Part shown: piece by piece, positions 9,395 to 41,184 of the stretch
Numbering within the stretch: position 1 is the first letter of the stretch
Layout: every line of letters begins with the position of its first letter
Origin: Gammaproteobacteria bacterium
GTDB lineage: Bacteria; Pseudomonadota; Gammaproteobacteria; JACQPQ01
Reading direction: 5' to 3'
Length of the DNA stretch: 51,113 nucleotides
NCBI GenBank assembly: GCA_016207405.1
Contig: JACQPQ010000025.1
Coordinates: forward strand, 1-51,113
The notes under the pieces: generated by a model
Seen by the model: only the letters and a program-made list of their open reading frames with translations
The model's database searches: none
What the model was told of the DNA's origin: nothing
Program-made: the position numbers and the translations under genes

Positions 9395-10582
9395 ATGGAC
9401 ACAACCTCACTCACGACTATCCTCTCAGATTGGAGCTATTGGGACAAACCTATACCCAAAGCTGTTCCAAGAATCGTTCATTTGCCTAAGCGCTTATCTT
9501 CAGACTTAGTACTTGTGATACAGGGTGTGCGTCGATGTGGTAAATCCACTTTCCTCCGACAATTGATTAAACATTATCAACTCGATCCGCAAGTCTGCAC
9601 GGTAGCTAATTTTGAAGATCCGAGACTTGCAGCACATTTAACACATGAGCTTTTGCAAAAAATCGTTGAAGTCGCACATGTGCGCCAACCCAAAGCTAAA
9701 AAATATTACTTTTTCTTTGATGAAATTCAGAATGTAGAGCTTTGGGAAAAATGGTTGCATGCTGAACTTGAACGGCCTAAAAATCATTATTTTGTTATCA
9801 CAGGGTCAAATGCCACGTTATTATCCGGTGAATTGGGGACGGCGCTTACAGGAAGGCATTTGACCGTTCCACTGTTTCCTTTTAATTTTCAGGAAGTGCA
9901 ACAAGTTTACCCAAAGGCTTCTTTCGTGGAGTATTTAGAAAAAGGCGGATTTCCAAGAGTATTGCTAGACAAAGAGGGAGTTCAATTATTGCCAGAATAC
10001 TTTAATGATATTGTAGAGCGTGATATTCGTGAACGTGTGCGAGCGCGTTCGAGCCAATCCATAAAACAGCTTTTGCAGATGGTCTTTGAAGCATGTGGTT
10101 CAGAAGTGAGCTTACGAAAATTGGCAGGGGCTTGCGGTTTAACGGCGGATACCGTAAGTATTTATTTAAATGTGTCTGAAAGTGCCTATTTGATTGGATC
10201 TTGCCCGTTTTTTGCTTATTCAGAGCGACAACAGCTCGTTCGAAATAAAAAATATTATCCTATTGATTCCGCTTTGCGCACTTCCGTCATTACACCAACG
10301 GGGTTAGATAAAGGGAAGAGCTTAGAAATCGCTGTTTTTTGGCATTTGTTAAAGCATTTTAAGGCAGTTTATTATTGGCGTGGAAAGGGAGAAGTTGATT
10401 TTATAGTACGCGGGAAAGATGGCATAACACCTCATCAAGTGAGTTTGGATGGTATCAAGCCAAGGCACGAAGCGGCACTTGAGGATTTTTACACACATCA
10501 CAAGAATGCCAACGAAGCAGTTTTTGTAACGAGCGAAAATGCAGAGTCTTTTTTTATAAGGCCATCTGTACGGCAAGCATAA
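9395..10582 (+). CDS. AAA ATPase with DUF4143 domain
   Basis: Predicted P-loop ATPase of 395 aa. The AAA_14-type domain has Walker A GVRRCGKST at about 44-52, Walker B YYFFFDEIQNVE, sensor-1 VITGSN and an arginine-rich GRHLTVPLFPFN segment. A DUF4143 domain follows, with a PD-(D/E)XK-like C-terminal part (YYWRGKGEVDFIV). Such proteins are common in variable regions; their function is unknown. I chose the ATG at 9395 over the in-frame TTG at 9374, which lies inside the palindrome. The last codons run 29 bp antisense into the 3' end of pdxA, so the C-terminal PSVRQA is borrowed sequence. Confidence 0.85.
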   Translation: MDTTSLTTILSDWSYWDKPIPKAVPRIVHLPKRLSSDLVLVIQGVRRCGKSTFLRQLIKHYQLDPQVCTVANFEDPRLAAHLTHELLQKIVEVAHVRQPKAKKYYFFFDEIQNVELWEKWLHAELERPKNHYFVITGSNATLLSGELGTALTGRHLTVPLFPFNFQEVQQVYPKASFVEYLEKGGFPRVLLDKEGVQLLPEYFNDIVERDIRERVRARSSQSIKQLLQMVFEACGSEVSLRKLAGACGLTADTVSIYLNVSESAYLIGSCPFFAYSERQQLVRNKKYYPIDSALRTSVITPTGLDKGKSLEIAVFWHLLKHFKAVYYWRGKGEVDFIVRGKDGITPHQVSLDGIKPRHEAALEDFYTHHKNANEAVFVTSENAESFFIRPSVRQA

Positions 10583-20524: not shown

Positions 20525-20714
20525 GGCATCAACCACCTGTGCCGGCGCAAGCATCAACCCTGAACCAGTGCGTTCAGGTGGGGGCGTGCGTAAAATGCTT
20601 TTAGGCTTCCCACATTAAAGTGGGCATGCGCACGAGCATCTTGCTTGGCTCCCAGTACACATTATTTAGGCTCAGATGTCTCTTTGCTTGCTACCGAACA
20701 CTGCAGTCGATGCC
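20525..20714 (-). ncRNA. ssrS: 6S RNA
   Basis: RNA polymerase-binding regulatory RNA, predicted about 190 nt (E. coli 184). On the minus strand the 5' end GGCATCGACTGC pairs, with G-U wobbles, with the 3' end GTGGTTGATGCC to form the closing stem. Inside are GAGCC-TAAATAATG, the central-bubble flanks and the TGAAC...GGTTCA hairpin near the 3' side, as in other gammaproteobacterial 6S RNAs. A T-rich stretch (CCTTTTTATTTTT) follows. Synteny, between zapA and fau, is the strongest support. Exact ends are approximate. Confidence 0.82.
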
Positions 20715-20726
20715 AAAAATCTGTAA

Positions 20727-21068
20727 TTAATCTCGTTTATTGCGAGCCACTGCACTCTTTATTTTATTGTGCAAAACTTGTAGGTGTTTGTCCAGTTTTT
20801 GGTGGTCGGCAGATTGCTGTTTTTGCGTGTTTTCGCCCACTTGCTTTTTAAGGGCCAGTAGTTCATGGACGATATTAAGCGCTGCCATGATGGTAATTTT
20901 CTCCACGCCCACAATGCGCCCGGATGCTTGAATTTGGCGCATTTTGCCGTCCAAATATTCTGCGGATCGATACAGTGCATCCTGTTCGTCTTCTTTGCAC
21001 GAAAATGGATATGCCTTATTGAGAATGTTGACTGAAAAGGCGGGAGAGACATCAACGTTAACATTCAT
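20727..21068 (-). CDS. zapA: Cell division protein ZapA
   Basis: FtsZ-ring crosslinking protein of 113 aa. The N-terminal domain has the family pattern VNILNKAYPFSCKEDEQDAL, AEYLDGKMRQIQASGRIVG and EKITIMAALNIVHELLALK. A charged coiled coil fills the C-terminal third, and the Gln-rich stretch at about 80-90 is unremarkable. It lies upstream of 6S RNA and 6 bp after the small coiled-coil gene, as in many gammaproteobacteria. Confidence 0.93.
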   Translation of the reverse strand: MNVNVDVSPAFSVNILNKAYPFSCKEDEQDALYRSAEYLDGKMRQIQASGRIVGVEKITIMAALNIVHELLALKKQVGENTQKQQSADHQKLDKHLQVLHNKIKSAVARNKRD

Positions 21069-21278: not shown

Positions 21279-21386
21279 AGTGTCATCCTGATGTTTACAT
21301 TTACTATAAAACCCTTATTGGGGTAGGTCAACTTTAAATTCCATGGATGGAATTTTATATCCATAGATCAGAAAGGACAGTTGAGT

Positions 21387-22700
21387 ATGAATATGCGTTG
21401 TTTTTCTGAACGACGTTCTCGTTTCATGGAAGAAATGAAACCCAACAGCCTTGCATTGATCCCGGCAGGAAGTGAGCAGTTGCGTGATAGGGATATCCAC
21501 TATGTTTTTCATCAGAATAGTGATTTCCACTATTTAACAGGATACCCAGAGCCGCAAGCACTCGCTCTCTTCCAGAAAGGAAAAGGCAAAAACGAAACCG
21601 GGCGGTGGATCTTATTTAATCTTAAAAAAGATGAAGTCATCGAGCGCTGGACAGGCACTCGGATAGGTCAAGAGAAAGCCTGTAGTTTTTATGGCGCAGA
21701 TGAAGCTCATGCGATAGAAGACCAAGATGAAGAGATCCCAAAGCTTATGGCAGGGTGTCAAACCCTGTACTACCCCATCGGCGTTTCCGAACCCTTTGAC
21801 CGCCGAGTGAATGGGTGGGTTCATACTGTGGAAAAGCAGGTTCGAACGGGCCTTAGTGCCCCATCGGTCCGAATCGCTTTGTCGAGCATACTGCATGAAA
21901 TGCGGCTCATCAAAACTGCACCTGAACTTGCGTGCATGCAAAAGGCAGTCGGTGTGTCTTGCTTGGCCCATGAGAGAGCGATGCGAGTTTGTCAGTCGGC
22001 TACTTCTGAATTCCAGATTCACGCAGAGTTGATGCGTGTATTTATGGAATCGGGTTGCCGGCATGTGGCATACGAGCCTATTGTGGCAAGTGGAGAGAAT
22101 GCCTGTATTTTGCACTACACGGAAAACACAGGGCCTCTAAAATCGGGAGAACTGCTGTTGGTTGATGCGGGAGTTGAGTTTGAGGGTTATGCGAGTGACA
22201 TTACGCGAACATATCCTACAAACGGCAAGTTTTCGCCTGAGCAGAAGGCTTTGTATGAAGTGGTACTTGAGGCCCAGCAGGCAGGCATTGCGGCTGTCAA
22301 GCCAGGCAATCATTGGAATCAACCCCATGAAGTGGTTATTCGGGTATTAACCGAAGGGCTGGTGGATTTGAAAATTCTTCAGGGGAGTGTGGATACTTTG
22401 ATCGAACAAAAAAGCTATGAAAAATTTTATCCACACCAAACGGGCCATTGGTTGGGCTTGAATGTGCATGATGTGGGTGCATACAAAGTAGATGAGGCTT
22501 GGCGAATCTTTAAGGCGGGAATGACCTTAACGGTGGAGCCGGGGCTTTACGTTAAATGCGAGCCAGAGGTCCTACCGAAGTGGTGGAACATTGGTATTCG
22601 CATCGAAGACGATGTTCTGGTAACGGAAACTGGGGCTTTGGTGATGAGTGAGGCGCTTCCCAAAAAGGTCGCCGATATAGAAAGCTTTATGCGAGGGTAG
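21387..22700 (+). CDS. pepP: Xaa-Pro aminopeptidase P (PepP, M24B)
   Basis: Two-manganese aminopeptidase removing N-terminal residues before proline, 437 aa (E. coli 441). An N-terminal creatinase-like domain precedes the pita-bread domain. Metal ligands are visible: VDAGVEFEGYASDITRTYP (two Asp), HQTGHWLGLNVHD (His), LTVEPGLYV (Glu) and GIRIEDDVLV (Glu). The ATG at 21387 is preferred: AAGGA at 21373-21377 is 9 bp away, while the in-frame TTG at 21381 is too close. In many gammaproteobacteria pepP lies upstream of ubiH, as here. Confidence 0.94.
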   Translation: MNMRCFSERRSRFMEEMKPNSLALIPAGSEQLRDRDIHYVFHQNSDFHYLTGYPEPQALALFQKGKGKNETGRWILFNLKKDEVIERWTGTRIGQEKACSFYGADEAHAIEDQDEEIPKLMAGCQTLYYPIGVSEPFDRRVNGWVHTVEKQVRTGLSAPSVRIALSSILHEMRLIKTAPELACMQKAVGVSCLAHERAMRVCQSATSEFQIHAELMRVFMESGCRHVAYEPIVASGENACILHYTENTGPLKSGELLLVDAGVEFEGYASDITRTYPTNGKFSPEQKALYEVVLEAQQAGIAAVKPGNHWNQPHEVVIRVLTEGLVDLKILQGSVDTLIEQKSYEKFYPHQTGHWLGLNVHDVGAYKVDEAWRIFKAGMTLTVEPGLYVKCEPEVLPKWWNIGIRIEDDVLVTETGALVMSEALPKKVADIESFMRG

Positions 22701-22748: not shown

Positions 22749-22756
22749 GATTGTAA

Positions 22757-22795
22757 GGTGGACTTGCACTCGCGTTTTTTTGCGAGCGGTCCACC
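22757..22795. repeat. GTGGAC-type REP-like palindrome between pepP and ubiH
   Basis: GGTGGAC...GTCCACC with an inner CTCGCG/GCGAG stem around a T7 loop. The right end is extended by CGGTTTTAGTCCACCGGTTTTAG, a direct repeat of its own right flank. It is nearly identical to the copy inside the ubiH coding region at 22949-22985, only about 150 bp away. The SD of ubiH lies just after it. Confidence 0.85.
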
Positions 22796-22829
22796 GGTTT
22801 TAGTCCACCGGTTTTAGTAGGAGTACAAA

Positions 22830-24068
22830 TTGAATTCGGCTGTGCGTCTTGATTATGATGTCGTTATCGTTGGCGGTGGTTTAGTTGGAATGAGTTTAGC
22901 GCTGGCGCTTGCACCTTATCCCCTTAAAATTGCTCTCCTTGAAAGTAGGGTGGACAAAGCTCGCGTTTTTTGCGAGCGGTCCACCGGTTTTCTAAAACCC
23001 CTCGTCTTATCCGAAAGCAGTCGACGCTTTTTTGAAAGTGTTGGTGTTTGGAAGGAACTCAAGCCGTATGCGGTTCCCATTGAAAGCATTCATGTTTCTG
23101 AAGAGGGACATTGGGGGGTGGCCCGTTTTAAAGCCGAACACCAAAAACTGCCTGCCTTTGGATATGTGATTGAATCTGCATTACTAGAACAAAAATTGAA
23201 GGAGCGATTAGAGGCAGAGGCAAAATCTATTACTTTTTTTTGTCCCATCGAAAATCTTGAATGTGAACCTCAAGACAACATTCTTCTTCGTATCACGCAT
23301 GCAGGCATCGTTAAAGAGCTGCGAGCTCGATGTGTCGTGGGTGCAGATGGAACGTATTCCACTGTGCGAAAGTTAATGAACATTCCGGTTATCAGACAAG
23401 ATTTTCCCGAAGCGGCTCTTGTTGGAATACTGACAGTAGGCAAACCAAAACCGTACACTGCTTTTGAGCGTTTTTTAAAGCGGGGCGTTCTTGCGGTTCT
23501 GCCTTTTTCTGATAATCGGTTTGCTTTTGTTTACACAAGACCAAAGGAAGAGATCACCCATTGGATGTCTGTCAGTGATGTGGTTTTTTTGGAGCATATC
23601 CAGGTTCAATTGGGTTATCGTCTAGGAAGAATACAAGCTGTACAAAGAAGTGCAACCTATCCGCTGGCGCACGTTCTGGCTGAAAAGTGGCGAGTTTCAA
23701 ATGCGGTTTTATTAGGGAATGCCGCGCATACGTTGCATCCGATTGGTGCGCAAGGGTTTAATTTGGCTCTCAGAGATCTTGCACTGCTTGCAGAGTACCT
23801 GGTGAGGGATTATCAAAAAGAGGGAACTTTAACTTTGCAGTGGATGTCGGATTACGTGTCGGAACGTCAAAACGCTCAAAAACAGGTTGTGCGATGGATA
23901 GATTTTTTAACTCGATCCTTTTCCGTACGGTTGCCGGGATCAGGAAGTTTGCGGAGCCTCGCTTTATTTGGTATCGATTCCTTCCTGTTTCTTAAAGCGC
24001 CGCTATTGAGGTTTGCTTCTGGGCTTTCTGATATTCGCCCCCGTTTACTTCGGGGGCTGTCTAGCTGA
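22830..24068 (+). CDS. ubiH: UbiH/UbiF-family FAD-dependent ubiquinone hydroxylase
   Basis: Flavoprotein monooxygenase of ubiquinone synthesis, 412 aa. It shows the Rossmann motif VVIVGGGLVGMSLALAL, the DG motif VVGADGTYSTVRKL and the FAD-ribityl motif LLGNAAHTLHPIGAQGFNLALRD. Translation begins at TTG, with AGGAG at 22819-22823 six bp upstream. Residues about 40-53 (RVDKARVFCERSTG) are encoded by an in-frame palindromic element (22949-22985). It stands just before KPLVLS, the equivalent of the conserved R-x-IALS of UbiH proteins, so the protein carries a foreign insert next to the FAD domain. UbiH versus UbiF is not certain. Confidence 0.88.
   Translation: MNSAVRLDYDVVIVGGGLVGMSLALALAPYPLKIALLESRVDKARVFCERSTGFLKPLVLSESSRRFFESVGVWKELKPYAVPIESIHVSEEGHWGVARFKAEHQKLPAFGYVIESALLEQKLKERLEAEAKSITFFCPIENLECEPQDNILLRITHAGIVKELRARCVVGADGTYSTVRKLMNIPVIRQDFPEAALVGILTVGKPKPYTAFERFLKRGVLAVLPFSDNRFAFVYTRPKEEITHWMSVSDVVFLEHIQVQLGYRLGRIQAVQRSATYPLAHVLAEKWRVSNAVLLGNAAHTLHPIGAQGFNLALRDLALLAEYLVRDYQKEGTLTLQWMSDYVSERQNAQKQVVRWIDFLTRSFSVRLPGSGSLRSLALFGIDSFLFLKAPLLRFASGLSDIRPRLLRGLSS
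22949..22985 (+). repeat. GTGGAC-type palindrome inserted in frame within ubiH
   Basis: GTAG (22945-22948) heads GGTGGAC, an inner CTCGCG...GCGAG stem with a T6 loop and GTCCACC, followed by CGGTTTT as in the intergenic copy at 22757. The frame reads through it without a stop, adding about 13 residues to UbiH. Confidence 0.88.
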
Positions 24069-31386: not shown

Positions 31387-31485
31387 TAAGGTGGACCGCT
31401 CGCTACGCTCGCTTTGTCCACCCTACAAAACTAATAAGGTGGACCGCTCGCTTTGTCCACCCTACAAAACTCCCGCCAGCGGGAG
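31371..31485. repeat. Array: heptamers, two GTGGAC palindromes and a CTCCCGC hairpin
   Basis: AAATCCT repeats (31371-31386) lead into palindrome 1 (31390-31422) and palindrome 2 (31438-31461), each followed by CTACAAAACT (reverse complement of the GTAG head and its leader). Copy 2 lacks 9 bp of the centre (GCTACGCTC) present in copy 1. A further perfect hairpin, CTCCCGC-CA-GCGGGAG, sits at 31470-31485. The remaining bases to 31552 hold nothing I recognise. Confidence 0.85.
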
Positions 31486-39404: not shown

Positions 39405-39457
39405 GAGTTAGGAGTTTTTGTAGGGTGGACAAAGCGAGCGTAGCGAGCGGTCCACCC
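39395..39457. repeat. Heptamer run plus GTAG-headed GTGGAC palindrome
   Basis: Three tandem TAGGAGT units, the first overlapping the ispG stop, are followed by TTTTTGTAG and the palindrome GGGTGGAC...GTCCACCC (39423-39457, centre AAAGCGAGCGTAGCGAGCG). This is the cleanest example of the composite element (heptamers, GTAG head, stem). It lies between convergent ispG and parB and could also act as a bidirectional terminator. Confidence 0.85.
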
Positions 39458-40359: not shown

Positions 40360-41184
40360 TTATGGTGGACCGCTCGCTGCGGGAGCAAAGTCCACCCTAC
40401 AAACTAACTCCTCCCCCTGCTCTTCTCGCCTTAAAATTTCTCCCGCTAGCGTTAAGTAACCAATAGATCCCCGTGAGTATCGGTCATATTGGATAGCAGG
40501 TAAACCATGGCTTGGCGCTTCGGCTAAGCGGGTATTGCGAGGGATGACGGTTCTGTAGACTTTATCTCCGAAGTGCTCGATGAGTTGTCTGGCGACTTCT
40601 ACGGCAAGACGGTTGCGAGGGTCAAACATGGTTCGGAGGATCCCTTGTATAGCGAGCTTTGGGTTATATATTTTTTTAATTTCGGCAATGGTAGACAGAA
40701 GGCCCGTTAGTCCTTCCAAAGCAAAGTATTCGCACTGCATGGGGATGAGGACACTGTCTGCAGCAACTAACGCGTTGACAGTGAGCATATTCAAAGAGGG
40801 GGGACAGTCGATCAAAATATAATGATATTGGGAGGAAAGGCTAGAGAGCGCCTTAGCCAATTTCTTTTCTCTTTCGGGGGAAGAGAGGAGTTCTATTTCA
40901 GCCGCGGTGAGATCGCTATTGGCTGGGATAATGTCATATCCTGTGTTGGGGCAAGAGGATATCACCTCTCTTGCGGGCGCTTCATCCATCACAACCTCGT
41001 AGGCAGAAAGAGACAGCTGATGTTTGTCGAGTCCACTTCCCATAGTTGCATTGCCTTGTGGGTCAAAATCGACGAGCAAAATACGTCTTTGGGTTGCTGC
41101 AAGCGACGCGCCTAAGTTAATGCAGGAAGTGGTTTTGCCCACCCCTCCTTTTTGATTAGCAAATGCAATGATTTGAGCTCTCAT
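40360..41184 (-). CDS. parA: Chromosome-partitioning ATPase ParA (Soj)
   Basis: Deviant Walker ATPase that moves ParB-parS complexes, 274 aa. It begins AQIIAFANQKGGVGKTTSCI (deviant Walker A), then LLVDFDPQGNAT, ILIDCPPSLNMLTVNAL and EYFALEGLTGLL. The natural C-terminus is near LAGEILRREEQG. The last ~16 residues (ELVCRVDFAPAASGPP) and the stop codon are encoded by a GTGGAC palindrome (40364-40396) and its flanks. The start has no SD. parB follows 12 bp later. Confidence 0.95.
   Translation of the reverse strand: MRAQIIAFANQKGGVGKTTSCINLGASLAATQRRILLVDFDPQGNATMGSGLDKHQLSLSAYEVVMDEAPAREVISSCPNTGYDIIPANSDLTAAEIELLSSPEREKKLAKALSSLSSQYHYILIDCPPSLNMLTVNALVAADSVLIPMQCEYFALEGLTGLLSTIAEIKKIYNPKLAIQGILRTMFDPRNRLAVEVARQLIEHFGDKVYRTVIPRNTRLAEAPSHGLPAIQYDRYSRGSIGYLTLAGEILRREEQGEELVCRVDFAPAASGPP
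40364..40396 (-). repeat. GTGGAC-type palindrome forming the 3' end of parA
   Basis: GGTGGAC...GTCCACC with the reverse-complemented GTAG head (CTAC) at 40397-40400 and a heptamer-like AACTCCT beyond. On the minus strand it is read in frame as the last codons of parA, followed at once by TAA. It sits between two essential-type genes without breaking either. Confidence 0.87.

Follow-up and report, generated by a model that had tools for sequence, protein, structure and literature searches.

A GTAG REP element read in frame in the ubiH gene of a gammaproteobacterium, in the place of a loop of the FAD domain

REPs of the GTAG superfamily are described in the available text of Di Nocera et al. 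2013 (PMC3733652) as palindromes of 20-40 bp with an unpaired GTAG head, occurring in tens of copies that are mostly intergenic, and copies located inside genes were already published there. In REPtrons (Nunvar et al. 2010, PMC2817692), a RAYT gene lies between two inverted GTAG palindromes. A different group of palindromes, the RPEs of Rickettsia, measures 105-146 bp (PMC2229807), and the RPE-bearing guanylate kinase of Rickettsia is still active with a changed substrate affinity (PMC2229807). As for the enzyme class concerned here, group A monooxygenases including UbiI possess a variable NAD(P)H loop that is disordered in some cases and on which Arg44 of p-hydroxybenzoate hydroxylase (PHBH) is marked (PMC6315137), and both Arg42 and Arg44 of PHBH have been linked to NADPH binding and to the position of the flavin (PMC3546652).

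The window analysed is the whole stretch of 51,113 nucleotides of contig JACQPQ010000025.1 (assembly GCA_016207405.1, Gammaproteobacteria bacterium). It carries a ubiH open reading frame with a TTG start (22830..24068, + strand, 412 amino acids) that is read through a REP element. With the NCBIfam collection, two UbiH models rank first (314 bits), under their equivalog cut-offs of 384 and 392, and the frame exceeds the cut-off of the Ubi-OHases subfamily TIGR01988. Upstream is found pepP, coding for a Xaa-Pro aminopeptidase (21381..22700, + strand; PF00557, PF05195, NF008131), and between the two genes there is an intergenic REP copy (22753..22801, + strand) that has its CTCGCG arm and GGTTTT tail in common with the copy in ubiH. 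At this intergenic copy the 14-mer GTCCACCGGTTTTA is duplicated in tandem (22789-22816). A 6S RNA (Rfam RF00013, 87 bits) is also present in this region on the minus strand at 20526-20712.

The element in ubiH is 41 bases long (22945..22985, + strand), with the GTAG head starting at 22945 and a palindrome at 22949-22985 composed of an outer stem GGTGGAC/GTCCACC, an inner stem GCTCGCG/GCGAGCG and a T-rich loop. The GGTTTT tail that follows (22986..22991, + strand) is common to the upstream copy and may have been transferred along with the core. An earlier note on this DNA had reported such a palindrome with its GTAG head and a tail to 22991, read through in frame by ubiH, and both observations hold: the element is present, and its translation in the ubiH frame, RVDKARVFCERST, lies within the 412-residue frame. 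Since only one of the six reading frames in the 41-bp form contains a stop codon, reading in frame mainly needs the right net length.

This palindrome is a true dispersed repeat, far above chance. In the 1.45-Mb genome, the palindrome pattern was matched at 21 forward and 26 reverse places, while the reversed control pattern gave no match in either orientation, and a looser symmetric pattern gave 62 matches per strand genome-wide versus 3 for its control. About 64 full copies were extracted, taken from the sequence stretches read around the pattern matches, and the overall number is estimated at about 60-70. Among the 64 copies, GTAG stands exactly outside the stem in 61, lengths are mainly 28, 37, 38 and 41 bases, and conservation outside the element drops off within a few bases. 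By an approximate census of open reading frames, few copies lie within frames matching Pfam, against about 89% of the window being in open reading frames. Genes clearly contain fewer copies than their share of the sequence would predict, which is what the removal of most intragenic insertions would be expected to produce. Across the class, the GTAGGGTGGAC pattern was matched in 6 of 369 genomes, its own included, and the copies listed for the other five have different loops. The exact 21-base element was absent from every other genome in two scans of genome contigs, the viral contigs searched for the REP gave none, and Rfam has no entry for it.

This dispersal bears on the idea that the hairpin within ubiH is a selected device, tuning translation of ubiH at the mRNA level or retuning the coenzyme preference of the protein. 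Taken alone, the element is predicted to form a very stable RNA hairpin (-25.2 kcal/mol, z -4.8), a stability reached by 0 of 200 shuffles, and what the REP replaced is the coenzyme-specificity loop (PMC6315137). However, its sequence is generic and dispersed over unrelated genes and intergenic gaps, and the fold of 141 bases of context around it is unremarkable (z -1.5), which leaves a selected device very improbable.

The ubiH element belongs to the GTAG superfamily of REPs and is not a Rickettsia-type RPE, because its GTAG head is unpaired, its palindrome measures about 20-40 bp in many copies and its tens of copies are mostly intergenic. The earlier note had likened it to the Rickettsia elements. 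The likeness stands in so far as a palindrome is read in frame in conserved genes (here ubiH and a Host_attach gene), but the family is a different one: RPEs of 105-146 bp contrast with the 41 bp and GTAG head of the ubiH element, and even the short RPE-4 and RPE-6 belong to the CGTC superfamily according to the available text of PMC3733652. With the intragenic GTAG REPs of that same source, as far as its available text describes them, the present family shares that some copies are read in frame in genes. On the other hand, in ubiH a single element replaced most of the loop, whereas more than half of the inserts described in that text are dimers or groups, and GGTGGAC/GTCCACC was matched to none of the 24 families of the article in a comparison made with its available text, without its consensus figure.

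A RAYT gene was found on contig 19 (L116, 1409-2036; NF047646, E 1e-47) between a pair of inverted GTAG palindromes with a sister sequence, GTAGGGTGCGC...GCGCACC, as in the REPtrons of Nunvar et al. 2010 (PMC2817692). The flanks of this RAYT are of the GTAGGGTGCGC type and the ubiH element is of the GTAGGGTGGAC type. The pattern of the sister palindrome was matched only three times in the genome, and this assembly, which is about 94% complete, gave no RAYT with GTAGGGTGGAC-type palindromes on its flanks. The RAYT is placed among pilin-like genes. Partial IS200-like transposase genes are also present on contigs 21 (L115) and 64 (L117), having the same sequence where they overlap, and one of them is cut at a contig end.

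The consequences for the protein were established by comparison with 29 UbiH proteins, all from other families, the loop being measured as the stretch between the end of strand 2 and the [IL]-A-L segment. Here codons 40-57 (22947..23000, + strand) encode an 18-residue loop, RVDKARVFCERSTGFLKP, in place of the native one, and the REP with its tail encodes about 15 of these 18 residues. Among the homologs, 25 have a loop of 15 residues, while lengths of 16 and 17 residues each occur in two. Consequently, the clean insertion of 13 extra residues proposed in the earlier note is ruled out by loop length; the net gain is 1-3 residues, with about 12 native residues (about 36 bases) probably lost, as judged from the alignment. 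Rather than a surface peptide having been added, as was also proposed, most of the native loop was replaced. The residues encoded by the REP were looked for in the 29 homologs, in view of the alternative that the palindrome was born of coding constraint, and were found in none, and that origin was rejected on this ground. No related UbiH was found in two scans of genome contigs.

The same alignment displays the loss of a motif at the end of the loop. D-x-R, which is near-universal among these 29 homologs (D in 29, R in 28) without being a formal definition of the UbiH family, reads F-L-K here. The statement that the protein keeps all FAD motifs is therefore correct for GxGxxG, DG and GNAxHxxHP and not for D-x-R. 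In alignments, the lysine of F-L-K, K56, faces the conserved arginine of UbiH 7mwa and of UbiI 4k22, and through UbiI its position would correspond to Arg44 of PHBH. The PHBH Arg42 and Arg44 mutants (PMC3546652, PMC6315137) are engineered changes of single residues, in contrast to the whole loop overwritten naturally in UbiH. A single-sequence structure prediction of UbiH had a mean pLDDT of 34 and was left unused.

A disabled UbiH, the open frame being that of a recent pseudogene or of a gene losing function after the REP insertion, has to be weighed at this point. Besides the missing D-x-R, UbiH keeps 61 of 77 strongly conserved columns, a share of 0.79 that is the lowest of 30 proteins, compared with 0.88 (fifth lowest of 24) for UbiI of the same genome. 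Yet the frame runs over 412 codons with neither stop nor frameshift and the main FAD motifs are intact, ubiG was found in the genome, so that ubiquinone is probably still made, and a lysine at the conserved arginine position occurs naturally in one homolog (L025). On balance, loss of function is unlikely, and the reading favoured from these comparisons is that UbiH most likely works, perhaps in altered form. The nearest tested precedent for a UbiH with such an insert would be, by analogy, the guanylate kinase of Rickettsia bearing an RPE (PMC2229807). The more specific proposal that a still-working UbiH had its NAD(P)H-contact loop overwritten by the REP, with a resulting change in its affinity or preference for the coenzyme, is considered a long shot.

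With regard to the origin of the insert, the ubiH and upstream copies start about 190 bp apart and had been called nearly identical. They do share 26 identical bases and a separate 12-base match, but the closest copy is the one on contig 11, to which the 41-base core in ubiH is identical (41/41). Two rare traits are nonetheless common to the two neighbours: a GGTT tail, present in 4 of the 64 copies, and a CTCGCG arm, present in 6 of them. Because both are shared 190 bases apart, they suggest local copying or conversion from the upstream copy, which could also account for replacement instead of plain insertion.

A false join of the assembly at repeated sequence was considered as well, given that the genome is in 73 contigs, some of which end at REP copies. 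The longest exact match of the ubiH copy to another copy found is 41 bases, as against a 47-base overlap at a REP between the ends of contig 33 (L084) and contig 6 (L057), and so the assembler was able to distinguish copies of this sort. Moreover, pepP is upstream and UbiH similarity is found on both sides of the REP in one frame, which makes a false join unlikely; an artefact is given next to no credence. At the ends of contigs 33 and 6, a 16-base stretch, ACACGATAAAAGCATC, occurs on both sides of the REP, which suggests a local duplication around it.

Taken together, the best explanation would be that ubiH acquired a GTAG REP, a small non-autonomous mobile hairpin of a class believed to be mobilised by RAYT transposases. 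It would have entered the reading frame at the loop that follows strand 2 of the FAD domain, either by insertion or by local copying from the upstream element some 190 bp away, together with a loss of about 36 native bases. Tolerance of the insert would be due to the preserved frame and to the variable, flexible nature of this loop in the enzyme class; UbiH would most likely still be produced and working, with its NAD(P)H affinity possibly altered, and the insert would have no selected function of its own. This explanation, from replacement of the loop to its tolerance in a working enzyme with an unselected insert, is considered likely as a whole.

Other copies show where else these elements reside. 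The window also holds two tandem copies in an intergenic gap (31390..31465, - strand), a copy in the gap between convergent open reading frames (39420..39456, + strand) and a copy that encodes the C-terminal end of a ParA-type ATPase (40364..40400, - strand). Elsewhere in the genome, the gene of a Host_attach (PF10116) protein contains a degenerate REP within its reading frame (L060, 1188-1230; contig 11, about 9787-9829); this REP matches a known subtype at 31 of 37 positions with one gap, and the protein has about 12 residues more than its homologs at this place, making this a cleaner RPE-like case of insertion than ubiH. A REP cluster is read in frame just past the CM_2 domain of a chorismate mutase frame (L077, 1200-1300; contig 26, about 20800-20900), and RuvC (L098) and an IspA-family septation protein (L071) end in residues encoded by REPs. 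A nucleoside-recognition (Gate) protein shows a weak match in the linker that joins its two halves, a linker whose length varies among homologs anyway. When ten further REP-containing frames were compared with Pfam, nine had no family match and the tenth matched domains downstream of the REP. In L098, a single open frame spans yebC and ruvC, uninterrupted by a stop codon. Short repeats, namely TTTAGGATTTAGGA, AAGGGATAAGGGGTAAGGG and runs of GAGTGCGGAGTGCGGA, adjoin many REPs, for example in L065, L069, L076 and L102.

The ubiH case is a well-supported intragenic GTAG REP, of a kind already known from a few other bacteria, and what is unusual in it is the replacement of a functional loop together with the disappearance of a nearly invariant motif. 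In-frame REPs are a route by which selfish hairpins can give proteins new peptide segments. Published in-frame REPs have mostly been argued to be neutral, being located in linkers, loops or termini, whereas the REP in ubiH occupies a loop whose role is known. If UbiH does work with an altered use of its coenzyme, a mobile hairpin would here have recast a functional loop, and not simply decorated the protein surface.
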